Shown in pieces: positions 1,915-24,314 of a stretch of DNA of 64,000 bases. Location of the stretch: positions 2,757,001-2,821,000 of the forward strand of contig NZ_AP019810.1 of NCBI RefSeq assembly GCF_013394305.1, given 5' to 3'. Origin of the DNA: Enterococcus mundtii (GTDB taxonomy: Bacteria; Bacillota; Bacilli; Lactobacillales; Enterococcaceae). The translations under genes and the position numbers were made by a program. Position 1 is the stretch's first letter; every line of letters starts with the position of its first letter. The notes under the pieces were generated by a model. The model saw nothing but the letters and a program-made list of their open reading frames with translations. It ran no database searches and had not been told where the DNA came from.

Positions 1915-1970
1915 AAATAGGCCTTAGAATCCAAAAATATGAGGATATTTTCGGGTTTTATGGCCTATTT
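1915..1970 (+). repeat. Dispersed hairpin element, copy 1
   Basis: Outer stem AAATAGGCC (1915-1923) pairs with GGCCTATTT (1962-1970). The interior contains a second short pairing, AAAATAT with ATATTTT, followed by TCGGG. The interior shares the order ATCC, CAAAAAT, GA-GA, ATTTTCG with copies at 12736-12790 and 24069-24124, while the outer stem bases differ. It sits 108 bases after the mapZ stop and has no long T run, so it is not a standard terminator. Confidence 0.6.
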
Positions 1971-2087
1971 CAGTCGAACACTGACGGCTTAAGCTTTTAT
2001 GGAGAATCTCTATCTATAAACATGGCGTTATGTTATGATAGCAAAGAAATGTTGGAATACAAAGGCCTTTTAGAAAAGGAGAAAAAG

Positions 2088-2951
2088 ATGAACGAATTAT
2101 TAGCAAATGTCTTTACCGCAATGGTGATTGACGAAAATGAAAAAAATTATTTTGTCCAAAAAAATGGACAAACTTTCCGTTTGAGCAAAGAGGAGGGAGA
2201 GCATACGATCGGCGAAGCAGTCGAAGGTTTTGGTTATCAGAATCAAAAACAAGAGAATCGTTTTACAACGGTGATCCCGAAGAGTCGCATTGGTCATTAT
2301 GCTTTTGGAACAGTCACTTCTTCAAGAAAAGATCTAGGTGTCTTTATTGATATTGGTTTACCGGATAAAGATTTTGTTGTTTCACTGGATGAGTTACCTA
2401 CAATGACTGAGTTGTGGCCCAAAAAAGGGGATCAGTTGATGATCGCTTTGCGCGTTGACGCGAAAGATCGCATTTGGGGAAGCCTAGCAGAAGAAAGAAT
2501 CTTCAAATCACTAAGTAAGCATGGTTCAGAAGAATTGAAAAATAAAAACATCTCAGGAATCGCTTATCGTTTGAAGCTGACTGGCACGTATCTGCTGACG
2601 GATGATTTTTATATTGGGTTCATCCATCCTTCAGAACGTTACCGCGAACCACGTTTAGGTGAAAAATTAGAAGGACGCGTAGTTGGGGCTAGACCTGATG
2701 GTGTGTTGAATATCTCTTTGAAACCACGTGCACACGAAGCGATTTCTGATGATGCACAAATGATCTTAACGATTTTAGAACGTTCAGCAGATCAACAAAT
2801 CGCATTCACTGACAAATCAGATCCAGATGAGATCATGCGTGCCTTTGGGATCAGTAAAGGGGCATTTAAGCGAGCAATTGGTAATTTATTGAAACAAGGA
2901 TTGATCAAACAAGAGGATGGCGTGACGAAACTAGCGAAAAAATCTAATTGA
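2088..2951 (+). CDS. cvfB: CvfB/YitL-family S1 RNA-binding protein
   Basis: This 287-residue protein has an S1-type RNA-binding domain at about residues 60-130 (signature GTVTSSRKDLGVFIDIG), a second S1-like segment at about 150-205 (GFIHPSERYREPRLGEKLEG), and a winged-helix end (AFGISKGAFKRAIGNLLKQG). That is the CvfB/YitL layout, a conserved regulator linked to virulence gene expression in staphylococci. The start at 2088 is chosen because AAAGGAG lies just upstream; an in-frame ATG at 2022 lacks a good site. It is not tightly linked to mapZ (280 bases apart) and is followed by the strong fur promoter. Confidence 0.85.
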   Translation: MNELLANVFTAMVIDENEKNYFVQKNGQTFRLSKEEGEHTIGEAVEGFGYQNQKQENRFTTVIPKSRIGHYAFGTVTSSRKDLGVFIDIGLPDKDFVVSLDELPTMTELWPKKGDQLMIALRVDAKDRIWGSLAEERIFKSLSKHGSEELKNKNISGIAYRLKLTGTYLLTDDFYIGFIHPSERYREPRLGEKLEGRVVGARPDGVLNISLKPRAHEAISDDAQMILTILERSADQQIAFTDKSDPDEIMRAFGISKGAFKRAIGNLLKQGLIKQEDGVTKLAKKSN

Positions 2952-2958
2952 GAATGAC

Positions 2959-2987
2959 TTGCATGTTTTTCTCGTCTAGCTTATAAT
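2959..2987 (+). promoter_or_regulatory. fur promoter (TTGCAT-17-TATAAT)
   Basis: A -35 TTGCAT (2959-2964) and a perfect -10 TATAAT (2982-2987) are separated by 17 bases. The expected start point is near 2994, so the Per-box palindrome at 3023-3037 lies in the transcribed leader. Confidence 0.7.
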
Positions 2988-3022
2988 AATTTTAATCTAG
3001 AACGGTTGATTAGATATCTTAA

Positions 3023-3037
3023 TTATAATCATTATAA
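3023..3037 (+). promoter_or_regulatory. Perfect PerR-box palindrome upstream of fur
   Basis: The sequence TTATAATCATTATAA is a 7-1-7 inverted repeat and matches the published Bacillus PerR box, TTATAATNATTATAA, at every fixed position. It ends 18 bases before the fur ATG. In B. subtilis the fur gene is a PerR target, so peroxide control of fur is the simplest reading. Fur autoregulation is the alternative, because Fur boxes share the ATAATNATTAT core. Confidence 0.75.
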
Positions 3038-3055
3038 ATTGTTGGGGTTGAGAAA

Positions 3056-3529
3056 ATGGGCATGAATACAATGTCAGTAATGAAAAAAACAAAACAACAG
3101 CTACATGAATCTGGGTTTAAACTGACCCCACAACGAGAAGCAACCTTGCTCGTCCTCTTAGAGAACGAAAAAGAACACTTGTCAGCAGAAGAAGTTTTCT
3201 TTCTAGTCAAAAAGAAAAACTCAGAGATCGGTTTGGCCACCGTTTATCGGACGTTGGAGATTCTAACGGATCTAAAAGTCATCGACAAAGTTAGCTTCAA
3301 TGATGGTGTGGCTCGGTATGATCTGCGAAAAGAAGGAGCCAAACATTTTCATCATCATCTCCTGTGCTTAGATTGTGGAACGATCGAGGAAGTCGAAGAA
3401 GATCTGCTAAGTGAAGTTGAACAAGTGATCGAACAGCGTTACCACTTTTTTGTCAAAGATCATCGTTTGACCTTTCATGGTATCTGCCAAGAATGCTATA
3501 ATAAGAAAAAAGAAAGAAAGACCGTCTGA
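3056..3529 (+). CDS. fur: Ferric uptake regulator Fur
   Basis: This 157-residue Fur-family repressor has an N-terminal winged helix (KLTPQREATLLVL, then IGLATVYRTLEIL), a metal-binding HFHHHLLC segment and two Cys pairs (CLDC and CQEC) for structural zinc. The sequence follows Bacillus Fur much more closely than PerR or Zur. It should repress iron uptake genes when Fe2+ is plentiful. ATG codons at 3062, 3071 and 3080 are possible alternative starts. It is followed by a hairpin terminator overlapping its stop, and xerD comes next, an order also seen in Bacillus. Confidence 0.85.
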   Translation: MGMNTMSVMKKTKQQLHESGFKLTPQREATLLVLLENEKEHLSAEEVFFLVKKKNSEIGLATVYRTLEILTDLKVIDKVSFNDGVARYDLRKEGAKHFHHHLLCLDCGTIEEVEEDLLSEVEQVIEQRYHFFVKDHRLTFHGICQECYNKKKERKTV

Positions 3530-3550
3530 ATTGATAGACGGCTTTTTCTT
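3522..3550 (+). terminator. Terminator after fur
   Basis: Stem CCGTCT (3522-3527) pairs with AGACGG (3536-3541), followed by a T-rich run. The left arm overlaps the fur stop codon. Confidence 0.7.
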
Positions 3551-3625
3551 TGAAGTGTCTACTGAAAAATAGACTACCGAAACCAAAGGCTATCTGATAT
3601 GATAAAGAAGCATGAGGTGAGAAGG

Positions 3626-4513
3626 ATGGAAGAAGAAATCAATGAATATCTTCGCTATTTAAGTATCGAGCGTGGATTATCGTTCAATACTCGAAAAAGT
3701 TATGAACGAGACTTGAATCAATACTTGCACTATCTAAAAGAACACGAGATAACCTCTTGGCAAACAATTGATCGATTTGTCGTCATCCAATATTTAGAAA
3801 CGTTGCATGCGGAAAATAAGGCTTCTGCAACGATTACACGTATGATTACAAGTTTAAGAAAATTCCATCAATTTTTGCGACAAGAACGGTATACAGAACA
3901 AGATCCAATGCAACACATCGAGACACCGAAGAAAGCCCAAAAGTTGCCAAGTACATTGTCTTTAAAGGAAGTAGAACGGCTGATCGAAACACCTGATACA
4001 TCGAAAAGTTTAGGGATCAGAGATCGCGCTATTTTAGAAGTCATGTATGCAACAGGGATGCGTGTGAGTGAGTTAGTCGGACTGAAGTTAGGCGATTTGC
4101 ACTTGTCTTTAGGGCTGGTTCAAACCTTAGGTAAAGGAGATAAAGAACGAATCATTCCTTTAGGCGATTATGCGATCCAATGGTTAGAACGTTATTTGGA
4201 TGAGGTTCGTCCTTTACTAGTCAAAAATCCATCTGAAAACCACGTTTTTTTGAATCATCATGGTTCAAGTCTCTCTCGACAAGGAATATGGAAAAATTTA
4301 AAACAACTTGTTCGAGAAGCAGGGATCTACAAAGACGTGACCCCTCATACATTGAGGCATAGTTTTGCGACACATTTACTAGAGAATGGGGCGGATTTAC
4401 GTACCGTTCAAGAACTATTAGGTCATGCAGATATTTCAACGACACAGATCTATACACATATCACGAAAAAAAGAATGACAGATGTCTACAAGCAGCATTT
4501 CCCAAGGGCTTAG
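3626..4513 (+). CDS. xerD: Tyrosine recombinase XerD
   Basis: This 295-residue tyrosine recombinase has an N-terminal SAM-like core-binding domain (residues 1-90) and a catalytic domain with the full set R146, K170, H241, R244, H267 and Y276. With XerC (47798-48694 in this window) it resolves chromosome dimers at dif. The start at 3626 is placed after GAGGTGAG; an upstream in-frame ATG at 3599 would add nine residues and has no ribosome site. It sits between fur and the ribT-scpAB run, matching the Bacillus fur-ripX neighbourhood. The position next to fur favours XerD over XerC. Confidence 0.9.
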   Translation: MEEEINEYLRYLSIERGLSFNTRKSYERDLNQYLHYLKEHEITSWQTIDRFVVIQYLETLHAENKASATITRMITSLRKFHQFLRQERYTEQDPMQHIETPKKAQKLPSTLSLKEVERLIETPDTSKSLGIRDRAILEVMYATGMRVSELVGLKLGDLHLSLGLVQTLGKGDKERIIPLGDYAIQWLERYLDEVRPLLVKNPSENHVFLNHHGSSLSRQGIWKNLKQLVREAGIYKDVTPHTLRHSFATHLLENGADLRTVQELLGHADISTTQIYTHITKKRMTDVYKQHFPRA

Positions 4514-4532
4514 TTTATAGGATGGTGAGAAA

Positions 4533-4900
4533 ATGTTAACACATTATCGAAAAGAAAACCGAAAAATCGCGATGGGACTATTGAGCTTTCATAAAAAGTT
4601 AAATGCAGAATCAAGTTTACTAAAAGAGATCGATACCTATGAATCTGCTGAGGATTATGAACTTTTTTTCTATACGCCAGAAGATTCTACAAATATCCAA
4701 GGAATCATTGGTGTGCATTGGAATGATAAAGATCAGATGACGATTCACGATATTTCGTTGAATCCTTCCTACCGGGGGAGAATATCGGGTTTCAAATGTT
4801 GAATGAATTGCAAGCAAAATACCCCGATGTGTTGATCCATCCAACGGATATCACAGAAGCTTATTTAAGTAGATGGATCAATGAAAATAAGGAAGAGTGA
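4533..4900 (+). pseudogene. ribT: RibT-like GNAT acetyltransferase, frameshifted
   Basis: The frame from 4533 (MLTHYRKENRKIAMGLLSFH) matches Bacillus RibT, a small GNAT protein of the riboflavin neighbourhood, but stops at 4802 just after the acetyl-CoA loop. The lost C-terminal half continues in another frame (GFQMLNELQAKYPDVL to NENKEE) and ends at 4900. One extra G in the five-G run at 4774-4778 would restore YRGENIGFQ and a 122-residue product, close to the family's usual length. So either the gene is inactivated by homopolymer slippage or this is a sequencing error. It lies directly before scpA. Confidence 0.8.
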
Positions 4901-4905
4901 ATGAT

Positions 4906-5667
4906 GTGTCAGAAATCAATATCAAATTAGATGTCTTTGAAGGTCCATTAGATTTACTCCTTCATCTGATCCAAGATATGTCGATCGATATTTACGATAT
5001 CCCGATCGCCACTATCACGGAACAATACATGAACTATATCCATACGATGAAGACGCTTGAGTTAGCTGTGGCAGGAGAGTACCTTGTCATGGCAGCAACA
5101 CTGATGGCAATCAAAAGTAAGACATTATTGCCTATCCATGAAGTAAGCAATGACGAAGAAGAATTTTGGGAAGAAGATCCGCGTGACGAATTAGTCAATC
5201 AGCTGTTAGAATACCGCAAATTCAAGTATGCAGCAGAGAAGCTTACTGAAAAGGCAGAAGAACGTAGTTTGTATTTCACAAAAGAACCTTCTGCAATCGA
5301 TGAGTTATTGGGGCAAGAAAAACCATTGAAGCGTGGACAAGTGAAAAAAATCGATTTATTTCAAGCCATGCAGAAAATTTTAGAACGAAAGAAATTTGCT
5401 CAAAAAGTAGAAAAAACGATCGCACCTGATGATGCGACAATCGAAGAACGAATGACATTTATCCAACAGCGCATCGTCTCTCAAAAAAATGGCTGTTTGT
5501 TCGAATCTTTTTTTGAAACGCCTTCTAGAAACGAAGTCGTCACAACATTTTTGGCGATCCTCGAATTGATGAAAAATGGACAGATCGTGGCTCAGCAAGA
5601 AAAAAATTATGAATCAATCATGCTTTATCCAGCAGTAGGAGATACACAACATGACGAAATTAAGTGA
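4906..5667 (+). CDS. scpA: Segregation and condensation protein A
   Basis: This 253-residue kleisin has the typical start INIKLDVFEGPLDLLLHLI. Its N-terminal helical domain binds the SMC neck and the C-terminal winged helix (near FLAILELMKNGQIVAQQ) binds the SMC head. With ScpB and SMC it forms the condensin that individualises sister chromosomes. The GTG at 4906 gives a 10-base gap from AAGGAAG; a GTG at 4897 is only one base from that site. The end overlaps scpB by 17 bases, which points to translational coupling. Confidence 0.92.
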   Translation: MSEINIKLDVFEGPLDLLLHLIQDMSIDIYDIPIATITEQYMNYIHTMKTLELAVAGEYLVMAATLMAIKSKTLLPIHEVSNDEEEFWEEDPRDELVNQLLEYRKFKYAAEKLTEKAEERSLYFTKEPSAIDELLGQEKPLKRGQVKKIDLFQAMQKILERKKFAQKVEKTIAPDDATIEERMTFIQQRIVSQKNGCLFESFFETPSRNEVVTTFLAILELMKNGQIVAQQEKNYESIMLYPAVGDTQHDEIK

Positions 5668-6226
5668 ACTTGAAGCAATCTTATTTATAGTAGGAGAAGA
5701 AGGAACGACAATCGAAGAATTGAGTGCCTTACTGACCTATACACGAGAAGAAACGACTGCTTTAGTGGCAGAGTTGGCAGCTAGTTATGAAGCGAATGAC
5801 AACACAGCGTTACATCTTTTTGAAACAGAAAAACAACTCGTGCTGACTACCAAAAAGGAGTTAGCGCCGATCGTCAAAAGATACGCGCAAGGGACATCGA
5901 ATACCTTGTCACAAGCGGCAGTCGAAACACTAGCAATCATTGCATATAAACAACCGATCACTAGAAGTGAGGTCGAGTTGATTCGTGGTGTTCAAGTTTC
6001 TGGCGCGATTCAACGCTTGACTGCACACCAACTGATCGAAGAAAAAGGGCGAGTCGATGGACCAGGTCGCCCGATCCTTTACGGGACCACAAGTCATTTT
6101 TTAGATTATTTTGGTCTGAGATCGCTAAATGAGTTACCCGATATTCAAGATATCGAACGTTCACTGGAAGAAGACGCACCCCTTGATTTATTTTTTGATG
6201 GCGTGCATGAAGGAGAAAACATATAA
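5651..6226 (+). CDS. scpB: Segregation and condensation protein B
   Basis: This 191-residue ScpB has two winged-helix domains. The conserved core AAVETLAIIAYKQPITRSEV with the following IRGV, and the later GRVDGPGRPILYGTT, are diagnostic. It dimerises and binds ScpA within the SMC condensin. The gene starts inside the scpA end and its TAA shares a base with the rluB ATG, so scpA, scpB and rluB form one tightly coupled transcript. Confidence 0.92.
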   Translation: MTKLSELEAILFIVGEEGTTIEELSALLTYTREETTALVAELAASYEANDNTALHLFETEKQLVLTTKKELAPIVKRYAQGTSNTLSQAAVETLAIIAYKQPITRSEVELIRGVQVSGAIQRLTAHQLIEEKGRVDGPGRPILYGTTSHFLDYFGLRSLNELPDIQDIERSLEEDAPLDLFFDGVHEGENI

Positions 6227-6942
6227 TGGAAAGATTACAAAAAGTAATTGCTCACGCAGGAATTACCTCTCGCCGTAAAGCCGAGGAATATATTTTGGCT
6301 GGTCGAGTAAAAGTAAATGGTCAAGTCGTCAAAGAACTTGGCGTAAAAGTTGGCAAACACGATACAGTGGAAGTCGACCAAGTGCCGATCTATCAAGAAG
6401 AATATGGCTATTATTTACTTTATAAGCCAAAAGGGGTCATTTCTGCTGTAGCAGATGACAAGGGCCGGAAAGTAGTGACAGACCTATTACCAATGGTCAA
6501 AGAGCGTATCTATCCAGTTGGACGACTAGATTATGATACTTCTGGCATACTTTTATTGACGAATGATGGTGATTTTGCGCAACGATTGACGCATCCCAAG
6601 CATGAAGTTGATAAAGTATATGTTGCCAAAGTCAAAGGAATCGCCACTAAGTCAGCGCTGAACCCATTGACAAAAGGAATCAAAATTGAAGGAAAGAAAA
6701 CGTCACCTGCAAAGTATGCCATTTTATCTGTTGATCCTCATACGAATCATAGTATCGTAGAATTAACGATCCATGAAGGCCGTAACCACCAAGTAAAAAA
6801 CATGCTACAAGCCGTCGGGTTACCTGTGCAAAAATTAAAACGAGAAAAATATGGCGAATTGACCTTGCAAGGTTTACGTCCTGGTGAGTATCGTGAGCTG
6901 AATAAAAAAGAAATCAGTCAGTTATTGAATCAATCAAAATAA
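6226..6942 (+). CDS. rluB: 23S rRNA pseudouridine synthase RluB
   Basis: The 238-residue protein has an N-terminal S4 RNA-binding domain (residues 2-60, LQKVIAHAGITSRRKAE) and the RsuA/RluB catalytic domain with the active-site aspartate in GRLDYDTSGILLLTNDG. It converts a uridine to pseudouridine in the large rRNA. Placement directly after scpB is the standard Firmicute order and supports RluB rather than RsuA or RluE. A hairpin terminator follows at 6957. Confidence 0.88.
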   Translation: MERLQKVIAHAGITSRRKAEEYILAGRVKVNGQVVKELGVKVGKHDTVEVDQVPIYQEEYGYYLLYKPKGVISAVADDKGRKVVTDLLPMVKERIYPVGRLDYDTSGILLLTNDGDFAQRLTHPKHEVDKVYVAKVKGIATKSALNPLTKGIKIEGKKTSPAKYAILSVDPHTNHSIVELTIHEGRNHQVKNMLQAVGLPVQKLKREKYGELTLQGLRPGEYRELNKKEISQLLNQSK

Positions 6943-6956
6943 ATAACTTACTTTTT

Positions 6957-6981
6957 GTAAGGCTAAATACCTTGCTTTTTT
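6957..6981 (+). terminator. Terminator after rluB, overlapping the next promoter
   Basis: Stem GTAAGG (6957-6962) pairs with CCTTGC (6970-6975) with one T-G pair, followed by six T. The right arm and first T bases also form the -35 TTGCTT (6972-6977) of the riboflavin promoter. Confidence 0.7.
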
Positions 6982-7000
6982 GTTATGAAATAAGTATAAT
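6972..7000 (+). promoter_or_regulatory. Promoter of the FMN riboswitch / ribU unit
   Basis: TTGCTT (6972-6977), a 17-base spacer and a perfect TATAAT (6995-7000) lie just upstream of the riboswitch. The -35 is embedded in the rluB terminator hairpin. Confidence 0.7.
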
Positions 7001-7028
7001 AAAATGGTAAACAAAAATTAGATATGGT

Positions 7029-7150
7029 TCGTCTTCAGGGGCAGGGTGAAATTCCCGACCGGTGGTTATAGTCCACGACCTACTTTTGCGAGTAGCTGAA
7101 TCGGTGAAATTCCGATACCGACAGTAAAGTCTGGATAAAGAAGATAGAGC
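7029..7150 (+). ncRNA. FMN riboswitch (RFN element)
   Basis: The conserved RFN blocks are visible in order: TCTTCAGGGGCAGGGTGAAA at the start, TCCCGACCGGTGGT, a variable arm, GAATCGGTGAAATTCCGATA, then CCGACAGTAAAGTCTGGAT. It binds FMN and should turn off ribU when flavin is plentiful. A strong terminator hairpin lies at 7182-7217, between the aptamer and the ribU ribosome site, so control is likely by transcription attenuation. Confidence 0.95.
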
Positions 7151-7181
7151 TTATTTGGCATACGTATGTACAAATGACTCT

Positions 7182-7217
7182 AACTCTATTTTCCCCTGCG
7201 AAAATAGAGTTTTTTTG
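7182..7217 (+). terminator. Riboswitch expression-platform terminator
   Basis: AACTCTATTTTC (7182-7193) pairs with GAAAATAGAGTT (7200-7211) over 12 perfect pairs, followed by a T run. Placed downstream of the FMN aptamer and before ribU, it is the expected off-state structure. Confidence 0.88.
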
Positions 7218-7276
7218 TTTGTGTTTACGTGGTTGAATAGTTCGCTGAAGAGGAATCCCAACAGGAGGATTTCAAC

Positions 7277-7888
7277 ATGAAGAACACCCGAGTACAAAAA
7301 ATGGTTGCGGTCGCATTATTTGCTGCAATCGGATTGGTTTTGCAATTTTTCTCATTTCCAATCATGCCAACATTTAGTTTTTTGAAAATCGATTTTAGTG
7401 ATATCCCAGTTTTGATCAGCATGTTTTTATTTGGCCCGTTAGCGGGGATCGTTACCGCGTTTTTACGTTCGATCTTACATTTGATCATGACCGGTTTTAG
7501 TCCGGAGAATCTAGTTGGCGACGTCGCTAGTTTCTTTTCAACAGCGGTCTTTACTTTACCGATTTTCTACATCTTCAAAAGAAACAAATACCAAAAAGGA
7601 AAAAATCAAATTTTAGGCGTGATCAGTGGAACACTTGCACTCACCATTTTCATGAGTATTGCGAACTATTTTGTAATCACACCTCTTTATTTAACATTTT
7701 TAGGCCTAAACGCAACCCAAATGTTAGGTATGCCACTGGCAAATTACATTTTGATCGGTATTGTACCTTTTAACTTGATCAAAGGATTTATCGTTAGTGT
7801 GGCATTCCTTGTCTTACACGCCAAACTACTGCCTTGGTTGAGCAGAAAACAACACCAGTTAGAAAAACGGCATAGCGTTGTAAAATAA
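7277..7888 (+). CDS. ribU: ECF riboflavin transporter S component RibU
   Basis: This 203-residue, six-helix membrane protein matches RibU: the N-terminal helix MVAVALFAAIGLVLQFF is followed by LKIDFSDIPVLISMFLFGPL, the substrate-binding signature of the family. It captures riboflavin and works with a shared EcfA-A'-T energy module encoded elsewhere. AGGAGG lies shortly upstream of the ATG. Control by the upstream FMN riboswitch confirms the substrate. A 14-bp hairpin terminator follows, so the unit is monocistronic. Confidence 0.93.
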   Translation: MKNTRVQKMVAVALFAAIGLVLQFFSFPIMPTFSFLKIDFSDIPVLISMFLFGPLAGIVTAFLRSILHLIMTGFSPENLVGDVASFFSTAVFTLPIFYIFKRNKYQKGKNQILGVISGTLALTIFMSIANYFVITPLYLTFLGLNATQMLGMPLANYILIGIVPFNLIKGFIVSVAFLVLHAKLLPWLSRKQHQLEKRHSVVK

Positions 7889-7949
7889 AAGTAAATGACT
7901 CTTTTAAAAAAAAAGACTAGGATAGCATATAATACAAAGAATACAAGTA

Positions 7950-7987
7950 AACTTGAAAGTAGGAATTCCTACTTTCAAGTTTTTTTT
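7950..7987 (+). terminator. Terminator after ribU
   Basis: AACTTGAAAGTAGG (7950-7963) pairs perfectly with CCTACTTTCAAGTT (7968-7981), with a four-base AATT loop and an eight-T tail. Confidence 0.92.
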
Positions 7988-8188
7988 ATGAAAAAGAGCA
8001 TTTTCAGTTATTTATATAGAGACTAGATAGGTTATATGGGAGGGGAACAAATGACCAATCATAGGTATTCGCATAGCTAACACTTATTTTTTTAAAGTTT
8101 TTCTTAATATTTTGTTATGAAAAAAAATTCAATAACCGACATTGTGTAAGCGTTTTATAAACCGTGTCTGAGTATTTTTTGCCTTTTT

Positions 8189-8209
8189 GTATAAAAATGT
8201 ATTTTATAC
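8189..8209 (+). promoter_or_regulatory. Candidate operator: GTATAAAA-N5-TTTTATAC
   Basis: A perfect 8-bp inverted repeat with a five-base centre lies 47 bases upstream of the predicted -10. AT-rich palindromes of this size are typical ArgR/AhrC sites in lactic acid bacteria, and the downstream carrier and dipeptidase would fit amino acid control, but the regulator is not shown by the sequence. Confidence 0.45.
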
Positions 8210-8232
8210 GTTTTGATGTGAAATTATTCTCC

Positions 8233-8261
8233 TTTTGTTTGTTAGATGGACCTGATATAAT
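8233..8261 (+). promoter_or_regulatory. Putative promoter of the YfcC carrier gene
   Basis: A perfect -10 TATAAT at 8256-8261 has a weak -35 (TTTTGT) at 17 bases. The weak -35 suggests that an activator or regulated use is possible. Confidence 0.5.
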
Positions 8262-8445
8262 AGACGACGGAAACGCTACAATTAGTATGAATAAAGCATT
8301 TCAATTAAATAATCAAAGGAGGGACAATAAACGAGGGTTTTGAATAAAATTTATCGAATCTACTAGTTATTATTTTTGTTCTTATCATCTTTTTGATAAA
8401 ATACCGATGTGTCAAAGATTTTTGAAACAAGAAAGGAAGAAGAAA

Positions 8446-9969: not shown

Positions 9970-10345
9970 TTCTAGACAAATGACAGCCAAAGTTCTATGA
10001 TAAATGAAGAAACAATATCTATTGACTGAATAAAGAGACATGAATCCTTTATTCACCAAGTACGATGTATCACTTGTATGTAAGAGATCGTCGGTAGAAA
10101 CAAGACCTTTGAAAAAACGAGTTACTCTGTTGATGAAATGGTGACTGAAGAATCCAGCGCCAAGAAATAAGCGACAAAACCCGAAACTTGGATTTTGGGT
10201 TTTGTCGCTTATTTCCGAAGGCGTTGGCTTTTTCACAGAAAATTTCGTGAATAGTGTCCTATTGCACTCGAGCAGATGTACATGTGGATCAAAGTAGTAT
10301 TTTCTGCCGTCATCTTTTTTTTAAAATAATGAGGAGGCAAAGTTG
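9970..10345 (+). other. Intergenic region between carrier and pepV
   Basis: About 375 bases with no convincing gene. The main content is the 18-bp perfect inverted repeat at 10165-10214. No strong promoter hexamers were seen; pepV has a good GAGGAGG site at its start. Confidence 0.5.
10165..10214. repeat. Dispersed hairpin element, possible copy 2 (18-bp perfect stem)
   Basis: AAATAAGCGACAAAACCC (10165-10182) pairs perfectly with GGGTTTTGTCGCTTATTT (10197-10214). The ends AAATAAGCG/CGCTTATTT are shared with the copy at 24069-24124. Read on the - strand the loop is AAAATCCAAGTTTC, similar to the other copies but shorter. There is no T tail, so it is a poor terminator in the usual sense. Confidence 0.55.
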
Positions 10346-11686: not shown

Positions 11687-11726
11687 ACCAATAGTTAGTT
11701 AAGAAACGAATAAGAGTCATAAAAGT

Positions 11727-12631: not shown

Positions 12632-12735
12632 GAGCGTCACTTTTCGGACCGGCGAAAAGAAATGATCCGTTTATAATTGAAAATTTCACAAGCTGATCGG
12701 CGGATACAGACGTCTCAAAGGAAGCTCCTAGAAAA

Positions 12736-12790
12736 ATAAGGCGTCATCCACAAAAAAATTTAAGAATCATTTTCGTGGATGACGCCTTAT
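12736..12790 (+). repeat. Dispersed hairpin element, copy 3
   Basis: ATAAGGCGTCATCCAC (12736-12751) pairs perfectly with GTGGATGACGCCTTAT (12775-12790). The interior, with AAAAATTTAAGA then CATTTTCG, closely matches the interior of the copy at 24069-24124, although the stem bases are different. It lies between two convergent genes (the hydrolase and fer), where it could also stop transcription from both sides. Confidence 0.65.
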
Positions 12791-12888
12791 CACTTGAGGG
12801 GAATACGATTACCTCATCTATTTTTGTAACATAGAAAAACAAGTAGATCATCGGACAGTCCTGCTAAAAGTTAGTTGTAAGAGAGCGG

Positions 12889-16361: not shown

Positions 16362-16383
16362 GAGAAAAGGGAGTTTATGAAAA

Positions 16384-17064: not shown

Positions 17065-17072
17065 ATAGAAAA

Positions 17073-17130
17073 AAAGCGAAGAATCCGACCATTTTAATGG
17101 AAAACAAACGAAATCGCTTTATTTTTTTTA
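17073..17130 (+). terminator. Possible terminator after cmk
   Basis: AAAGCGA (17073-17079) pairs with TCGCTTT (17114-17120), followed by a T-rich run. The loop is long (34 bases) and contains ATCC and CCATTTT words, which makes it a weak candidate member of the dispersed hairpin family. Confidence 0.5.
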
Positions 17131-17197
17131 AATAATCAATTAAACTATAGGCAGTACCGTAGTTAACGGCAGAATGTTGGTTAGGAGGACAAGTGTT

Positions 17198-18430
17198 ATG
17201 ACAGAATTTGAACAAAATCAGACAGATAACAACCAATCTATGGAAGATGCAATGAATAGCGTTCAAGAAGTGAGCGTTGGCGATGTCGTCAAAGGAGAAG
17301 TTTTAGTTATTGAAGACAAACAAGCCATCGTTGGAATCGAAGGAACGGGTGTTGAAGGCGTAGTTCCTGCAAAAGAATTATCTACTTTACCGGTTGAAGA
17401 TATCAACGAAGTGGTAAAGGTTGGCGATACGTTAGATCTAGTCGTGATCAGCACGATTGGTAAAGACAAAGAAAACGGAAGTTACCTTTTATCAAAACGA
17501 CGCTTAGATGCGAAAAAAGTTTGGGAGGATATCGAAAAAGATTTCCAAGCTGGAAACATCATCGAAGCACCAGTGACAAATGTAGTTAAAGGTGGTTTAG
17601 TTGTCGATGTCGGTGTTCGTGGATTTGTTCCGGCATCAATGGTAGAAGATCATTTTGTCGCTGATTTTTCTGAATACAAAGGAAAAACGATGACATTCAA
17701 AATCGTTGAAATCGAACCATCAGAAAATCGCTTGATCCTTTCACACAAAGCAGTCGTTGAAACAGAAAAAGAAGCACAGAAAAAAGAATTACTATCAACT
17801 ATCCAAGAAAATGACGTGATCGAAGGACGCGTTGCTCGTATCACAGATTTTGGTGCGTTTGTTGATTTAGGCGGCATCGATGGATTAGTACACGTTTCTG
17901 AGATTTCTCACGGACATGTTGCTAAACCCGGTGATGTTTTAGCTGTTGGCGATGAAGTGAAAGTCAAAGTTCTTTCAATCAATCCAGAACAAGGACGTAT
18001 CTCATTATCGATCAAAGACACATTGCCTGGACCTTGGACAGATATCGAAACAAAAGCTCCAGTAGGCGCTGTACTTGAAGGTAAAGTGAAACGATTAACT
18101 AGCTTTGGTGCCTTTGTTGAAGTATTCCCAACAGTGGAAGGGCTTGTCCACATCTCACAAATCTCACATAAACACATCGCGACACCACATGAAGTGTTGC
18201 ATGAGGGCGATGATGTCCAAGTGAAAGTTTTAGAAGTCAATCCAGAAGAGCATCGGATTGCATTAAGTATCAAAGCATTAGAAGAAAAACCTGCTTCTGA
18301 TAAAGAACCAAAAGAAGTTGAGTCTTATGAGTTACCTGAAGAAAACACAGGATTTACAATGGGTGACATCTTAGGCGAAGCCTTAAAAGGGGAAGTAGAA
18401 GAAACAGCAACAGATGATTCTGAAAAATAA
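17198..18430 (+). CDS. rpsA: 30S ribosomal protein S1 homologue (four S1 domains)
   Basis: The 410-residue protein has four S1 RNA-binding repeats, at about residues 20-95, 112-175, 200-270 and 285-355, followed by an acidic tail. The third and fourth have the classic forms VARITDFGAFVDLGGIDGLV and VKRLTSFGAFVEVFPTVEGL. Gram-positive S1 is shorter than the six-domain E. coli protein and may act more as an RNA-binding or ribosome-associated factor. AGGAGG precedes the ATG at 17198. It lies between cmk and der, the Bacillus order (ypfD). Confidence 0.9.
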   Translation: MTEFEQNQTDNNQSMEDAMNSVQEVSVGDVVKGEVLVIEDKQAIVGIEGTGVEGVVPAKELSTLPVEDINEVVKVGDTLDLVVISTIGKDKENGSYLLSKRRLDAKKVWEDIEKDFQAGNIIEAPVTNVVKGGLVVDVGVRGFVPASMVEDHFVADFSEYKGKTMTFKIVEIEPSENRLILSHKAVVETEKEAQKKELLSTIQENDVIEGRVARITDFGAFVDLGGIDGLVHVSEISHGHVAKPGDVLAVGDEVKVKVLSINPEQGRISLSIKDTLPGPWTDIETKAPVGAVLEGKVKRLTSFGAFVEVFPTVEGLVHISQISHKHIATPHEVLHEGDDVQVKVLEVNPEEHRIALSIKALEEKPASDKEPKEVESYELPEENTGFTMGDILGEALKGEVEETATDDSEK

Positions 18431-18495
18431 ATGAATGATCGTTCCCGAAGCGCGAATTTACAGCATCAAGGGAAGTTGTACATGTGTAAAACAAG

Positions 18496-18530
18496 TGGTC
18501 TGGGGATTACGCCCCAGACCATTTTCTTTT
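18496..18530 (+). terminator. Terminator after rpsA
   Basis: TGGTCTGGGG (18496-18505) pairs perfectly with CCCCAGACCA (18512-18521), followed by TTTTCTTTT. Confidence 0.92.
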
Positions 18531-18642
18531 GTAATAGGCAGTGATCCAGAAAAATACTTGAATGTTCACCGATCTAAGCTTGAAAGTTCGCGAAGTATTC
18601 GGTACACTAAGTGAGATTGGAAACATGTGAGGAGGAAAAAAT

Positions 18643-19953
18643 ATGGCAAATCCAACAATTGCAATCGTTGGTCGCCCAAACGTCGGTAAGTCGACGATTT
18701 TTAACCGTATCGCCGGTGAGCGTATTTCGATTGTCGAAGATACTCCAGGAGTTACTCGTGATCGTATTTATGCTAAAGGGGAATGGTTAGGTCGTGATTT
18801 CAGTATTATTGATACTGGTGGGATCGACTTAGGCGATGAACCATTTATGGATCAAATCAAGCACCAAGCAGAAATCGCAATCGATGAAGCAGACGTAATC
18901 GTCTGTGTCGTCAGTGGCCGTGAAGGCATCACTGATGCAGATGAAGTCGTAGCAAAAATTTTATATCGCAGCAATAAACCGGTGATCTTAGCCGTTAATA
19001 AAGTCGACAATCCTGAAATGAGAAACGATATCTATGAATTTTATGCACTAGGTCTAGGTGATCCTTACCCTGTATCTGGAAGTCATGGATTAGGGATCGG
19101 CGACATCTTAGATGAGGCAGTGAAATTCTTTGATGAAGAAGCAGAAGAAGAAGAGGATGATACCATCAAATTCAGTTTGATCGGTCGCCCGAATGTAGGG
19201 AAATCTTCCTTGATCAATGCGATCCTAGGTGAAGACCGAGTGATTGTTTCGGACATCGAAGGAACGACGCGTGATGCTATCGATACGCACTTCGTCTCAG
19301 AAGACGGTCAAAAATTCATGATGATCGATACAGCTGGAATGAGAAAACGTGGGAAAGTTTATGAAACCACAGAAAAATACAGCGTGATGCGTGCCATGCG
19401 TGCGATTGACCGTTCAGACATCGTGTTAATGGTCTTGAACGCAGAAGAAGGCATCCGTGAACAAGATAAACGAGTAGCTGGCTATGCGCATGAAGCTGGC
19501 CGTGGTGTGATCATCGTTGTCAATAAATGGGATCTAGTAAAAAAAGAAACGAATACGATGCGTGACTTCGAACAAGAGATCCGTGAAGAATTCCGTTACT
19601 TAGACTATGCGCCGATTCTGTTTGTTTCAGCTGTGACTAAGCAACGATTAGAACGTTTGCCTGAAATGATCGAAGAAGTGAGTATGAACCAAAACTTACG
19701 TGTTTCTTCAGCAGTCTTGAATGATGTGATCATGGATGCCGTAGCGATCAACCCGACACCGACAGATAAAGGTAAACGATTAAAGATTTTCTATGCCACA
19801 CAAGTTGCAGTTAAACCGCCAACCTTTGTTGTTTTTGTTAATGAAGAAGAATTGATGCATTTCTCTTATGAACGTTTTTTGGAAAATCAAATCAGAAAAG
19901 CATTTACGTTTGAAGGAACTTCGATCCGAATTATTCCACGTCGAAGAAAATAG
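18643..19953 (+). CDS. der: Ribosome assembly GTPase Der (EngA)
   Basis: This 436-residue GTPase has two tandem G domains, each with its own P-loop: [12 protein letters not shown] near residue 9 and [12 protein letters not shown] near 183. G3 motifs are DTGGI and DTAGM; G4 motifs are NKVD and NKWD. A C-terminal KH-like domain ends in RIIPRRRK. It is essential for 50S maturation. AGGAGG precedes the ATG. Upstream there is a 212-base gap holding the rpsA terminator, so der probably has its own promoter. Confidence 0.95.
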
Positions 19954-20089
19954 GCATTTTACCATAGTAGTCCGTTTTTTTCAAAAAAAATAAGCATATT
20001 TTTGTATTACGTTTTTATGACTAAAAAAAGCGGTTAAATAATGCCAAAAACCTTGCTATTAAGCGATTCATATGATATCGTGATAACAG

Positions 20090-20121
20090 AATATTGAAAC
20101 TTAATCAATATTTCTTATAAA
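20090..20121 (+). promoter_or_regulatory. hup promoter with inverted repeat over the -35
   Basis: TTGAAA (20094-20099), a 16-base spacer and TATAAA (20116-20121) form a good promoter. AATATTGA (20090-20097) and TCAATATT (20105-20112) are a perfect inverted repeat covering the -35 and spacer, so a repressor or other DNA-binding protein may act here. Confidence 0.55.
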
Positions 20122-20199
20122 CTTCTGGACCACTCAGAAAGTTTTTAAACTAAAATGATGTTCCTATCATATCTCTTGTTGGAGGAGGTGAATCTATCC

Positions 20200-20475
20200 A
20201 TGGCAAATAAAGCAGAATTAATCGAAAAAGTTGCTTCAGCTACAGATTTAACTAAAAAAGACGCAACTGCAGCAGTTGACGCTGTATTTTCAACTATCCA
20301 AGATGCTTTAGCTAACGGCGAAAAAGTTCAATTAATCGGTTTTGGTAACTTTGAAGTACGCGAACGCGCGGCTCGTAAAGGACGTAACCCACAAACTGGT
20401 GAAGAAATCGAAATCCCAGCTAGCAAAGTACCTGCATTTAAACCAGGTAAAGCATTGAAAGACGCTGTTAAATAA
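20200..20475 (+). CDS. hup: DNA-binding protein HU
   Basis: This 91-residue HU nucleoid protein has the conserved dimer core and DNA-binding arms: [20 protein letters not shown], then [20 protein letters not shown] with PGKALKDAV. It bends and compacts DNA. The ATG at 20200 follows an unusually strong GGAGGAGGTG site, consistent with very high expression. An in-frame ATG at 20155 is less likely. It is followed by its own terminator. Confidence 0.95.
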
Positions 20476-20485
20476 GACAGTTGAA

Positions 20486-20525
20486 AAAGCGCTTGTGGCT
20501 ACGGCTACAGGCGCTTTATTTTTTA
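20486..20525 (+). terminator. Terminator after hup
   Basis: AAAGCGC (20486-20492) pairs with GCGCTTT (20511-20517), with additional inner pairs and a T-rich tail. Confidence 0.8.
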
Positions 20526-20717
20526 TATAGATGGATAAAAGAGGCGGAAAGCAGTAGAAAGGCAACAACCAAATAGTTCAGCAACCAAATGGAACTCGTT
20601 ACATACCAAATAAAAGAATAGAGTTGATCAAAAAGGCATGGGTTCATTCACTCGTTTTTCTTATTCTTTTTTTATTTTACTTACTAATGGTAAAATAAAA
20701 GAAAAGGGGAGGGCAAC

Positions 20718-21764
20718 ATGGAGTTATCCTATCGCTACCAACAAGAAGAAACAACAATCTTTTATGGGGAAACATTTGTCAGTCAGTTGAAAAATGAATC
20801 GATTGATCAAGCGATTCTTTTTTTAACGAACCAACGTTATTATGATCTATACGCTGAGAAAATGACACAGTCATTCACGAACAAGTTAGCGATTGATTGG
20901 TATATTTGTGGCAATACGCAGTGTAATCAATTATCTGAATTGCATAGCCTCTTGTCCTATGCGAGACGCTATCCTGAAAATCGACCGCTTTTAGTAATAG
21001 GTTTTGGCAATGAGGGAATTATGGAGTTGGCGGGCTTCTTTCAAAAACATACGTATCTTCAGACTACACTTTGGTTGATCCCCGTCTCGATCCGCTCCAT
21101 GGCACGGGCACTTAATCCTCAATGCGAGATTTTACATGGGTCGAACGAATCGGCTCTTCAAACGACGAACCTTCCAGAACGGATCATTTATGATCGGACG
21201 ATCAGTGAAAAACAAATCGAAGGGAAACAAATCGATTTTTTGATTTTTATCTGTTGTGGGTTAGTCTGTGATCATCCGTTTCTTCAAAATCTTTACAAAA
21301 ATTATCCGAATCGCGAAAAATTATTCAATCGTCCTTTTGCTGGCATGTTAGAAGAAATCATTTATTTTTATCAAGAAGACGCTGAACAAGTGGCAAATTA
21401 TGGTAAACTATTTGAGCAAGCTTTTTATCTGACTGAAAATAGTCATTTGCTTTCCGCCAGTATGAAAAAATTTTTAGGTATCTTGATGCAACTTATCTGG
21501 AATTCAGAAATCAAGTCGCTTTCTTTCCAATTGAAGAATTTTTTTATCTGGCTGCAGCATCTAGGTTATCCAATTATTTGGCCTGAAGAGATATCAAAAA
21601 TGGATTATCTAGAAAATGTGCTGGTTTTAGCAGAAAAGAGCAAAAAAATTCTCGTTTTGGAAAAAATTGGTATAATAGATGGATATCAATTGCCAAACGA
21701 GCAAGAACTATTGAAAACAATGGCGTCCTATGAAAGGATCGTTCAAGAGATTAGAGGGATTTAG
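20718..21764 (+). CDS. Degenerate 3-dehydroquinate-synthase-like protein
   Basis: This 348-residue protein has no clear enzyme motif, but the order of segments follows AroB. GFGNEGIMELAGF (residues 95-107) aligns with the NAD-binding GGGvvGDLaGF; IPVSIRSM (121-128) with PTTLLAQ; GLVCDHPF (181-188) with the helix after the metal-binding Glu; GKLFEQAFY (229-237) with the GHTFGHAIE zinc motif. The glycine triplet, the DSSVGGK loop and the zinc-binding His residues are gone, so catalysis is unlikely. It abuts the TPR gene with no gap. In Bacillus, aro genes lie just before the same ypiA-ypiB pair, which supports descent from aroB. The homology is my own alignment and needs a structure or profile check. 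Confidence 0.55.
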   Translation: MELSYRYQQEETTIFYGETFVSQLKNESIDQAILFLTNQRYYDLYAEKMTQSFTNKLAIDWYICGNTQCNQLSELHSLLSYARRYPENRPLLVIGFGNEGIMELAGFFQKHTYLQTTLWLIPVSIRSMARALNPQCEILHGSNESALQTTNLPERIIYDRTISEKQIEGKQIDFLIFICCGLVCDHPFLQNLYKNYPNREKLFNRPFAGMLEEIIYFYQEDAEQVANYGKLFEQAFYLTENSHLLSASMKKFLGILMQLIWNSEIKSLSFQLKNFFIWLQHLGYPIIWPEEISKMDYLENVLVLAEKSKKILVLEKIGIIDGYQLPNEQELLKTMASYERIVQEIRGI

Positions 21765-23024
21765 ATGATGACAAATAGTGAAAAAATGCTACAAGCATTA
21801 GCAGACGAAAATTTGACAGAAGCAATTGAATATTTGGCAAAGGCGCTCCAAGAAGATCCGGCTGATGTGTTACATGAGTTAGGAGAAGAATTATTAGCCA
21901 TCGGTTTCTTAGAAGAAGCAAAAGCAATTTTTGAACATCTGCTAACTGTATCGCCTGAAAATGATGAATGGAATATTCCGTTGGCAGAGATCGCTATCGA
22001 AGACAATGAGATCGATCAGGCATTTGACTATTTAGAAAAAATCCAGCAAGATAGTGAGTACTATCCACAAGCACTATTAGCAATCGCTGACTTGTACCAA
22101 GTAATCGGTATTCCTGAAGTAAGTGAAGCAAAATTGAAAGAAGCAGCGAAGCTATTACCAGAAGAACCATTGATTCAATTTGCATTGGCTGAATTGTATT
22201 TTTCAGTTGACCGTTTCAATGAAGCTTCCGCACTTTACGAAATGTTGTTAGCAAATGGTATAGAAGAAATTTCTAGTATTTCCATGCAAGAACGCTTAGG
22301 ACAATCGTTGAGTATGCAAGGGGATTTTGAAGCAGCAATCCCACCACTGGAAGCAGCTTTAGCCGAAGAGCGGACAGATGATCGTTTGTTCCAATTAGCG
22401 TTCACGAATCTACAATTACATGAGAACGAAAAAGCTATCAATTATTTGCAAGAGTTACGGGAATTGAATCCACAGTATCAATCCTTATACCTTTATCTAG
22501 GTCAGGCCCTTCAAGAAGAAGAGATGATCGAAGAAGCACAACAAGTCTTAGAAGATGGTATCAAAGAGAATCCATTCCAAGTAGAACTTTATCACCTAGC
22601 TTCGGAAAATGCCTTTCGTCTACATGACAAAGAAAAAGCAGAGAAGTTACTACTTGATGCCTTGAACGTCGGCGACAAACAAGATGAAACGTTGTTGACG
22701 TTGAGTAATCTTTACTTGGATCAAGAACGTTATGAAGACGTTGTTCAAACAGTCAACCAAATGGAAGAAGTTGCTAATCCATATGCAGAATGGAACCTCG
22801 CTCATGCCTATAATCAATTAGAAGATTTTGCGGTAGCAGCAGTCCACTATGAACAAGCAGCCCACGAATTAGATCATGAGCCAGATTTCTTGAAAGAATA
22901 TGCTTTATTCTTACGTGAAGAGGGCCAATTAGCAAAAACACGAGAATTATTGGAACAATATTTAACTTATGAACCAGGGGATATGGAGGTATTGTCGCTA
23001 TTAGATGATTTAACAGAGAGGTGA
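21765..23024 (+). CDS. ypiA: TPR-repeat protein (YpiA-like)
   Basis: This 419-residue acidic protein consists almost entirely of tetratricopeptide repeats (for example [20 protein letters not shown] and [20 protein letters not shown]). It is cytoplasmic and acts as a protein-protein scaffold. It is wedged between the AroB-like gene (adjacent) and reoY (six-base gap to the chosen start). The TPR plus UPF0302 pair is conserved in Bacilli and Listeria, suggesting a shared function. The partner proteins are not known from sequence. Confidence 0.85.
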
Positions 23025-23029
23025 TGAAT

Positions 23030-23590
23030 ATGTTGATTGATGTTAAAGAAAAGAAGAATTTCTTAACTTGGATGGTTAACCATGTCTCTTTCAGTCGTAG
23101 AGAAGTATTTTGGATTTTGAACTATCTGGCAAATCATGAAGCAATCTTACACAATGTGCGTTTTGTTGAAGGTGCAAACTTAACAAGACGTGGTTTACAG
23201 ATCACCGATCTTTCCTATGAAGGTGAGCCGATGAAGCTATTTTTAGATGGAAAGGAATTTACTGACACTGATCAGATCTTCCACGAAATCCGTCTGAATT
23301 GGAAAAATCCACTCTATGTCGAATGCCTTTTTGAAAATGCGTGGCAAACGAAAGAATATTTAGAAATCATCGAAGATAACCCGTTAGCCTCATGGGAAGA
23401 TGCAATCAGCGAAGAATCAACAGAATTAATCGAGCATTATTTCCAAGAAAAAGAGCAAGCAGCTAAACTAAACATGCTTTACCAACAGATCGATCAGGCA
23501 TTAGAAGAAGGCGATAAAGATGCGTTTCTTGAACTATCTGATGAAGTGAACCGCATGATTCTTCAAGCGCCACAGAAGAGTAAGAGCTGA
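23030..23590 (+). CDS. reoY: UPF0302 protein, YpiB/ReoY family
   Basis: The 186-residue protein matches YpiB (UPF0302): [20 protein letters not shown] with [20 protein letters not shown]. The Listeria homologue ReoY helps ClpCP degrade MurA and so tunes peptidoglycan synthesis downstream of the PrkA kinase. The ATG at 23030 is eight bases after AGAGAGG; in-frame GTG 23021 and ATG 23024 are too close. It ends the AroB-like/ypiA/reoY run, followed by a 12-bp terminator. The family is recognised with confidence; the role here is by analogy. Confidence 0.82.
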
Positions 23591-23666
23591 GTGTGGGGAA
23601 AGCTGACCAGGGAAAAGTAACATTATGATAAGTAAGTAACTATAGTGAAAATATATATAATAAAGT

Positions 23667-23712
23667 CTAGGCTTCCTTCCGAGTAATATTCGTAAAGGAA
23701 GCCTAGTTTTTA
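23667..23712 (+). terminator. Terminator after reoY
   Basis: CTAGGCTTCCTT (23667-23678) pairs perfectly with AAGGAAGCCTAG (23695-23706), followed by TTTTTATT. Confidence 0.92.
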
Positions 23713-23776
23713 TTAAGTTTTTTGGTCAACAAAAAATGGATTTCAATAACAAAATTTCTTAAAAAGCTTATTATAA

Positions 23777-23893
23777 TCAAATTTGTTCCAGAATATCTCT
23801 GGTCGCTTCCCTAAATTCCTTTGGTTGATCCGTATGAACGAAATGTCCAGAGATCTTTACATATTCTAGATTTTTGGAAGGTGCGTTGATCTG
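23777..23893 (-). pseudogene. 3' remnant of an alpha/beta hydrolase gene
   Basis: On the - strand this stretch reads NAPSKNLEYVKISGHFVHTD then QPKEFREATRDILEQI and a stop. That is the usual C-terminal end of an alpha/beta hydrolase, including the catalytic His in the SGHFVHTDQP context. Upstream in frame there is a stop (TAA) and no recognisable hydrolase core, so only about 38 codons survive. It marks this interval as a decaying site. Confidence 0.65.
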
Positions 23894-24314
23894 TTAGAAA
23901 TGTATACATATTTGATTCCAGTGATATTTTCAGATAGTAATATAGGCTCTCTTAAATATTATCAGTTATATTTTAAATAGTTCATCTATCTTTCATTCTG
24001 TGCAAAAAAATATGAAACGATAAAGCTATTGATCAAAAAAAGATGTGACATAAGTATCCAGCTATGGGAAATAAGCGTGGATCCCAAAAATTTGAAGAGC
24101 CATTTTCGTTTTTCACGCTTATTTATGAAGGTAAGCTTGTGGAGCACCATATATTCGGTTTTAGGAAGTACAAAAGGCCTAATCGCCCAGGTACTTCTGA
24201 ATGAACTGAGAATATCTCTAAGTAGACATGTGCAACTCCTTGATCATGAAGTACGCAGAACTACGTTATTCTATATACGTAGAAAGCTTCAGTATCAGGT
24301 TGATTGATTCAAAA
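23894..24314. other. Decayed intergenic stretch between reoY and yitT
   Basis: The roughly 420 bases hold no gene I can support. A + strand open frame of 92 codons (24029-24307) runs straight through the hairpin element at 24069-24124 and has no recognisable protein features, so I do not call it. Codon use and AT content look non-coding. Confidence 0.5.
24069..24124 (+). repeat. Dispersed hairpin element, copy 4
   Basis: AAATAAGCGTG (24069-24079) pairs with CACGCTTATTT (24114-24124). The interior has the shared words ATCCC, AAAAATTTGAAGA and CATTTTCG. It is the copy that best shows the family consensus: ends as in the 10165 copy, interior as in the 1915 and 12736 copies. Confidence 0.65.

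Follow-up and report, generated by a model that had tools for sequence, protein, structure and literature searches.

Three hairpins lie at positions 1915, 12736 and 24069 of the window, the 64-kb stretch of the Enterococcus mundtii genome (G000) analysed here, where an earlier note had located them. The note took a hairpin of about 55 nt as the repeated unit; the hairpin itself stands, but it is only the apex of an element of ~160 bp with two hairpins. A covariance model of 160 positions, R1, was built on 24 full copies and used to scan the window with filters off. Three old copies are found, at 10135..10266 on the minus strand (67.8 bits, E 2.7e-12; apex hairpin 10165–10214), 12664..12821 on the plus strand (51.8 bits, E 7.2e-9; apex hairpin about 12736–12790) and 24039..24194 on the minus strand (61.2 bits, E 7.1e-11; apex hairpin 24069–24124), the last locus scoring lower on the plus strand (24008–24151, 49.6 bits). 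Alignment places the first two at orthologous positions in the relatives G004, G008 and G011; the third is retained in G011, and G004 and G008 carry a different hairpin there. The hairpin at 1915..1971, downstream of the stop codon of ORF 230–1807, is an apex-only remnant on the plus strand (R1 positions 73–131, 44.1 bits, E 3.2e-7) that is also present in G004, G008 and G011.

A well-preserved and better-scoring copy, absent from the earlier note, starts at 63930 on the plus strand; only its 5' part (63930..64000) lies within the window, and the full copy is G000:C1:2820930-2821089 (100.2 bits in the whole-genome search). The note had named two possible further copies, of which that at 10165 is confirmed by the 67.8 bits given above. 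The other, at 33960..34014 with no strand assigned, was dropped as a family member and is kept as a candidate hairpin of unproven membership (19.6 bits over 33960–34009, apex positions 77–126 only, E 0.058). A marginal match at 30367..30480 on the minus strand (23.5 bits, E 0.0084) may be a decayed copy or an ordinary hairpin.

Copy number and covarying fold of the family

The core pattern CAAAAAWNTGARGANNCATTTTCG, derived from the three main window copies (1915, 12736, 24069), occurs at 65 places in G000 with up to three mismatches, compared with 2 for a reversed control pattern. With R1, at least 149 matches are obtained in G000, 147 of them with E ≤ 0.01, and merging yields about 125 distinct copies (2 of the 125 with E > 0.01), a lower bound since the best 150 of 2201 candidates were scored. 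The further copies and the covariation on which the earlier note had staked its proposal of a family were thus both looked for and both found. R1 matches are present in all 16 Enterococcus genomes searched, G000 included, and in 14 of 20 other Enterococcaceae genomes; in the relatives the best 50 candidates per genome were scored under stricter filters, and the counts there are lower bounds. Two records labelled E. faecalis score highly, L323 with 122.5 bits over 163 nt and two hairpins, and L135 with 129.4 bits.

Distinct stems occur within A1, and plasmids show a two-unit array and a one-unit allele. The plasmid pair L133/L139 was rejected as an occupied/unoccupied comparison, as an array of two units is compared there with a single unit, and the missing 126 bp lie between AATAAACGACG repeats. 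No clean unoccupied plasmid site was seen among the best 60 of 181 records for L132 and all 47 records for L137.

The compensatory stem change around a constant loop, claimed from the hairpins of the window, is borne out by the family. Of the stem cells, 93.0% are paired compared with 83.3% after shuffling, 17 pairs show double changes, and covariation is 0.283 against 0.115 in controls (0/500); the stem covariation largely consists of blocks separating subfamilies, so that the cell counts overstate the number of independent events. The three copies that were folded give z-scores of -7.8 to -12.6. The loop is near-constant while the stem varies by compensatory changes, a combination compatible with a hairpin that is retained in a mobile element and in a terminator.

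Insertion at terminator-like hairpins

Most copies lie at gene 3' ends: 48 of the 125 are between convergent genes and 65 between codirectional genes, and the distance from stop codon to element has a median of 24 bp in these 113 cases. For comparison, 144 element-free gaps include 20 convergent and 37 divergent ones. The placement at 3' ends, which the earlier note had stated for all of its copies, holds for the majority genome-wide; 11 copies were scored as divergent and one as inside an ORF, assignments that rest on a crude ORF caller, and a pure terminator target would not lead one to expect these twelve. Likewise, the lack of T tails is correct in part, in that A and T runs, where found, sit in the flanks outside the element. 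In the 74 of 125 copies that score at least 80 bits, the arms on the two flanks pair with each other better than mismatched ones do (0/1000).

Insertions differ among genomes that are 94–99% identical around the sites, and the comparison of sites covers 4 of the 125 copies together with 4 window copies. Site A is unoccupied in all three relatives (G011, G004 and G008), site B in G008 and site C in G011, and the unoccupied sites A, B and C fold as terminator-like hairpins with -24.2, -16.2 and -26.9 kcal/mol, respectively. At the filled sites the apical part of the relatives' hairpin is missing and the element stands in its place; the basal stem arms are kept at sites A and C, and site B retains little or no stem. 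At site C, G004 holds the element in reverse orientation. The presence/absence among relatives and the terminator-like hairpins at unoccupied sites support the mobile half of the earlier suggestion of a small mobile or REP-like element.

The location of the hairpins at gene ends is what ordinary intrinsic terminators, made alike by convergence or gene conversion, would also display, and the weakest candidates, 33960 and 30367, may be such terminators. However, the copies share ~160 bp of sequence, a large part of which lies beyond the hairpin, and they are present or absent at orthologous sites, so for the family as a whole this reading is refuted and we give it next to no credence. A class of structured regulatory RNAs that act within 3' UTRs through a bound protein or ligand, and are selected for their conserved apical loop, would agree with the near-constant loop region and covarying stem, and with the orientation bias of the codirectional copies, of which 45/65 are oriented against the upstream gene and 20/65 along with it. 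Such a class is difficult to reconcile with insertions that vary among closely related genomes and take the place of terminator-like hairpins, with both orientations at the single site C, and with conserved positions that reach out to IS-like termini. Over the element, Rfam has no family at cut-off (the window searched at cut-off, five loci at E ≤ 1), and the sub-threshold matches at the five loci are to microRNA hairpin families, far under their cut-offs. We therefore regard the RNA class, which the earlier note had offered as an alternative, as very improbable and not needed to account for the data.

Termini and the candidate parent transposon

The ends and the two-hairpin layout of the element match the type-2 branch of the IS1182 family (ISSau3/IS1272 type) and do not match the type-1 enterococcal branch; its hairpin replacement matches the insertion mode in print for IS1272. 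The type-2 IS (L100/L088 in G015, L101, L103, L110, L111, L115, L130) and ISSau3 (L324) resemble the element in having termini of the GAG..TGGGACA type, with one hairpin close to the left end and another, whose stem varies, ahead of the right terminus. They differ in encoding a transposase of ~530–610 aa, whereas the element has ~160 bp and no transposase gene, and the conserved CCGAATAAACGG hairpin of the element was not seen in the type-2 IS ends examined.

Position weight matrices (PWMs; 18 nt for the left end) were derived from the termini of 44 copies with at least 120 bits and applied to 10 of 30 type-2 loci plus the plasmid copy L131, and to 4 type-1 elements. The left-end PWM finds the left end of 8/11 type-2 IS (p ≤ 0.0036) and the right end of 9/11 (p < 0.05), and 0/4 type-1 IS; failures include L106 and L112 in the left-end test, and L104 (cut by contig) and L106 in the right-end test. 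The right-end PWM gives values below 0.05 at 6/11 type-2 right ends, one of them (L100) off the terminus, and at 3/11 in a narrower scan whose window started beyond the IS end in several loci; it fits the IS right ends worse than the left-end PWM does. In several type-2 IS, R1 finds matches where the transposase gene has its 3' end; the scores on the IS right ends are low (about 15–34 bits) and partly due to a generic hairpin. The generic-hairpin background can be gauged from the window match at 30367 (23.5 bits) and the type-1 IS L072 (15.3 bits). In G015, a stretch of ~205 bp joins left- and right-end matches without a transposase gene between them, its outermost bases being decayed.

No type-2 transposase was detected at E ≤ 1e-20 in G000, G004, G008 or G011, hence the mobiliser would have to reside on a plasmid, have been lost or be a different enzyme. 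The last case corresponds to a terminator-targeting repeat moved by the type-1 IS1182 transposase of G000 or by an HUH enzyme, with a convergent likeness to type 2; G000 does carry a type-1 IS1182, whose open frame has 488 aa, and type-1 elements likewise sit at hairpins. However, the type-1 ends CAGACTGTAGAC are unlike those of the element, and 10/12 type-1 copies have a repeated hairpin-like target on their flanks, in contrast to the element, which removes part of its target; we consider this assignment improbable. Since ends and layout match type-2 IS1182, and the hairpin-replacing insertion matches that in print for IS1272, the element is most likely a MITE of such an IS.

Relation to known repeats and significance

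REP/BIME sequences are short single palindromes tied to a REP-associated tyrosine (HUH) transposase; the size of the element, its two hairpins and its IS1182-type ends argue against a strict REP assignment. Elements of the Efa-1/EFAR kind have ~163–170 bp with two adjacent stem-loops. EFAR insertion reportedly deletes most of the target stem-loop while part of the stems stays, and EFAR is said to be assembled modularly from several sequence types; sites A and C of the element show partial stem retention of this kind, and site B little or none. Efa-1 of E. faecalis is described, in the accessible part of the source, as a 163-bp model with an adjacent stem-loop pair, intergenic and with 65 copies listed (PMC2267715). 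The element, with ~160 bp, two adjacent stem-loops and intergenic location, is similar, and the R1 scores on L323 (over 163 nt) and L135 show sequence homology with elements in these two E. faecalis records; it differs in host (E. mundtii group) and in number (about 125 copies by R1). Efa-1 and EFAR probably constitute one family. A link between Efa-1/EFAR and IS1182 is found neither in the accessible text of PMC2267715, PMC5678879, PMC9208149, PMC10969869 and PMC4923244 nor in a wider search, which missed most subscription papers, including that on EFAR (Venditti et al. 2007, FEMS Microbiol Lett).

The insertion mode at sites A–C resembles that in print for the staphylococcal IS1182-family elements IS1272 and TnSha1, which, in the parts of the sources available, insert at terminator hairpins without sequence consensus, with partial deletion of the stem-loop and no target duplication (PMC4923244, PMC5678879). 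TnSha1 occurs in both orientations in one terminator (PMC4923244), as does the element at site C; IS1272 and TnSha1 are, in contrast, kilobase elements with a transposase gene. The pneumococcal BOX, RUP and SPRITE are dispersed intergenic repeats too, and SPRITE is called terminator-like in the accessible text (PMC10969869), but their host differs from that of the element and the comparison is by description alone.

Taken together, the element is very likely a ~160-bp two-hairpin MITE of the Efa-1/EFAR kind that inserts at terminators, and an IS1182 transposase of the ISSau3/IS1272-like branch most likely mobilises it in trans. A type-2 transposase would act in trans on an element that bears the left- and right-end hairpins of the IS without the gene, and the target would be recognised as a DNA hairpin or cruciform. 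On entry into an intrinsic terminator, the element supplants the apex of the stem-loop it hits, while the flanking A/T runs stay and, as seen at sites A and C but not at B, so do the arms of the basal stem. The site would then once more hold a large hairpin in terminator surroundings; the 3' end of the upstream gene probably stays functional, with termination continuing and the insertion being tolerated. A broader and rather doubtful extension is that hairpin-replacing elements drive terminator turnover in Enterococcaceae, with IS1182 transposases seeing hairpins as DNA structures, ~160-bp derivatives having overwritten ~100 terminators in G000, and the apical hairpin of the element being itself replaceable; such replacement would account for wholesale stem differences alongside a near-constant loop and flanks.

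What we propose as new is a probable parent transposon for an enterococcal repeat of an already known kind, which gives the family a testable mechanism and joins Efa-1/EFAR of E. faecalis and staphylococcal IS1272 by one insertion mode, stem-loop replacement. The case is also a warning that covariation of a hairpin in a 3' region need not point to regulatory RNA, since mobile DNA can show it too. If the proposal is right, insertions into terminators would be nearly neutral because the element supplies its own hairpin, and this would explain both the high copy number and the position at gene 3' ends.

Extent and fold of the repeat

The three hairpins named in the earlier note are present at 1915-1970, 12736-12790 and 24069-24124, and a core pattern taken from them occurs at 65 places in the genome, compared with 2 for the reversed pattern (≤3 mismatches). 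The proposed unit of about 55 nt is a real hairpin. Conservation extends far past 55 nt in most of the 30 loci examined, and their flanks delimit an element of about 160 bp, from about GNGTCTGGGACATTAGTC to CTTCTGTCCCGACCTC, with the 55-nt hairpin as its apex. Loci sharing the hairpin or one half only are few, and include L018, L006 and L030. In the alignment of 24 full copies the element folds as a long main stem bearing the apical hairpin, and the alignment and folds also contain a GGGAC-type hairpin near the left end and a small conserved hairpin, CCGAATAAACGG.

Pairing and covariation were counted over 38 base pairs in the 24 aligned copies. Paired cells amount to 93.0%, versus 83.3% after shuffling, and in 17 of the 38 pairs both partners have changed. 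Covariation scores 0.283, compared with 0.115 for shuffled alignments (0 of 500 shuffles as high) and 0.053-0.098 for slid structures; since the stem changes are largely blocks that separate subfamilies, independent events are fewer than the cell counts. The apex stem is variable and the loop nearly invariant, as the earlier note had described, and the covariation expected from it stands above both controls. Its expectation of further copies is also borne out: a covariance model built from the 24 copies (R1) gave 149 matches at E ≤ 1 (147 with E ≤ 0.01), corresponding after merging to at least 125 distinct copies (64 plus, 61 minus), a list that may be incomplete, as it draws on the best 150 of 2201 candidates scored.

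Replacement of hairpins at gene ends

With genes called by a simple ORF finder, 48 of the 125 copies fall in convergent gaps, 65 in codirectional and 11 in divergent ones, and one is inside an ORF; the corresponding numbers for 144 element-free gaps in the same loci are 20, 87 and 37. The median distance from stop codon to element is 24 bp (113 cases), and the element is oriented against the upstream gene in 45 of the 65 codirectional copies. The two 30-nt flanking arms of a copy, taken for 74 copies, pair with each other at a mean of -7.59 kcal/mol, versus -6.38 (s.d. 0.28) when combined with the arms of other copies (0/1000). A-runs precede the element in 37 of the 74, versus T-runs on this wrong side in 17, and T-runs follow it in 20, versus A-runs on the wrong side in 9.

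Four copies (sites A-D) were compared with the close relatives G004, G008 and G011; in long matches at the compared loci, identity to our genome is 88-96% for G008 and 94-99% for G004 and G011. At site A (C1:592730) all three relatives lack the element and have a terminator instead (AAAAAAAGGGTTTGATCGGCGCATCAGCGTCTTTCAAATCCTTTTTTT in G011, -24.2 kcal/mol), of which our genome keeps the basal arms but has the element where the apical part would be. Site B (C1:595089) is likewise filled in G011. The hairpin found there in G008 (-16.2 kcal/mol) is mostly absent from the filled form, and a longer stretch in G004, with a diverged apex core by eye, is probably another copy. For site C (C1:2026032), the G011 sequence folds as a hairpin of -26.9 kcal/mol, and our genome retains both CAACTGCGA/TCGCAGTTG arms. 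At sites A-C the element thus stands in for the apex, or for the greater part, of a hairpin, and no target duplication was seen. Site D (C1:2032450) is filled in G004 and G011; in G008 the stretch is shorter and, judged by eye, forms a hairpin. Element orientation at site C is opposite in our genome (C1:2026032, L201) and in G004 (C1:150994-151164, L203), which reflects either independent insertion or inversion.

In the window, the copies at 1915, 10165 and 12736 occupy the same place in all three relatives and are therefore older. The copy at 24069 is present in G011, and G004 and G008 have another hairpin. Compared with window 24039-24194, these two genomes (L286, L289) retain one element end with an unrelated hairpin at the apex position, which looks like a replacement of the apex itself. 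The sole Rfam match above cut-off in the window is an FMN riboswitch at 7027-7149 (102.3 bits).

Two branches of IS1182-type elements

Of 36 genomes searched with PF13751, 15 have IS1182-type transposases, and the elements whose ends were read fall into two types. Type 1 has CAGACTGTAGAC ends and includes L070, L085, L074, L086, L077, L089, L098, L076, L072 and L073; one type-1 element, in our genome, has a 488-aa open frame. Direct repeats of 18-33 bp, mostly a complete stem-loop, flank 10 of 12 copies; at L095 and L097 the hairpins on the two sides differ. The flanking whole-stem-loop repeats indicate that this branch duplicates its hairpin target, whereas the other probably deletes it. Insertion of IS1272 and TnSha1 removes part of a terminator hairpin and generates no target duplication; in one terminator, TnSha1 has inserted both ways round (PMC4923244, PMC5678879).

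Type 2, found in G015 among others, terminates in sequences such as GAGAGTGGGACAATAGTC / ACTATTGTCCCACTCTC. One hairpin lies close to its left end, and another, with a variable stem, precedes the right end and is matched weakly by R1 in several loci; S. aureus ISSau3 is laid out in the same way. The G015 transposase scores 413.6 bits with NCBIfam IS1182 (cut-off 270), and shares 99.1% identity with a protein named 'IS1182 family transposase' on an E. hirae plasmid and 49.2% with ISSau3. Of 106 genomes of the family, 35 contain relatives, and none was found at 1e-20 in our genome, G004, G008 or G011.

The left-end weight matrix of the element matches type-2 left ends in 8 of 11 cases at p ≤ 0.0036 and in 9 below 0.02 (L106 and L112 fail), and on type-2 right ends it reaches p < 0.05 in 9 of 11, the exceptions being L106 (0.0501) and L104, which its contig truncates. 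The right-end matrix of the element is weaker on the IS right ends, falling below 0.05 in 6 of 11, including one match away from the terminus, and in 3 of 11 in a narrower scan window. No end of the four type-1 elements used as controls scores below 0.09. In G015, a stretch of about 205 bp combines a left-end match (IS positions 27-110) and a right-end match (1728-1793) with no transposase gene between them. Lone type-2 left-end hairpins occur at L309, L311 and L321 (G015) and L298 (G102); L309 and L311 have A and T runs at their borders and look like free-standing terminators. From sequence, we infer an IS1182-type parent for the element; no paper listed in the literature searches makes this assignment.

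Host range and known families

R1 matches 31 of 59 genomes searched, our own included: 16/16 in the genus, 14/20 others in the family and 1/23 outside it. Plasmids labelled E. faecium, E. faecalis and Lactiplantibacillus plantarum also carry copies. Lactobacillus plasmid records concerned are L132 (L. plantarum) and six more. In L132 the element adjoins the aspT 3' end, and this stretch recurs in L. pentosus and L. paracasei records, which suggests spread outside the enterococci. One record whose label is Escherichia coli plasmid (L138, OL539428.1) has the element beside a gene annotated efrB and resembles enterococcal chromosome; it is probably mislabelled or chimeric. An E. faecium plasmid (L133:1467-1743) has a two-unit array and a Lactococcus plasmid (L139) a one-unit allele, in which 126 bp between AATAAACGACG repeats are missing.

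In one E. faecalis-labelled record, a copy matches R1 over 163 nt (122.5 bits) and has both the left-end hairpin and the main hairpin. The 2007 EFAR paper of Venditti et al. reportedly describes insertion with loss of most of the target stem-loop. Efa-1 of E. faecalis is a 163-bp intergenic family of two adjacent stem-loops with 65 copies listed (PMC2267715). Given the Efa-1 and EFAR descriptions, the family is not new. The element is real, mobile and terminator-replacing, and represents a kind already known from enterococci, here in a new host, the E. mundtii group; its parent is probably of the IS1182 type, through which it would have been mobilised.
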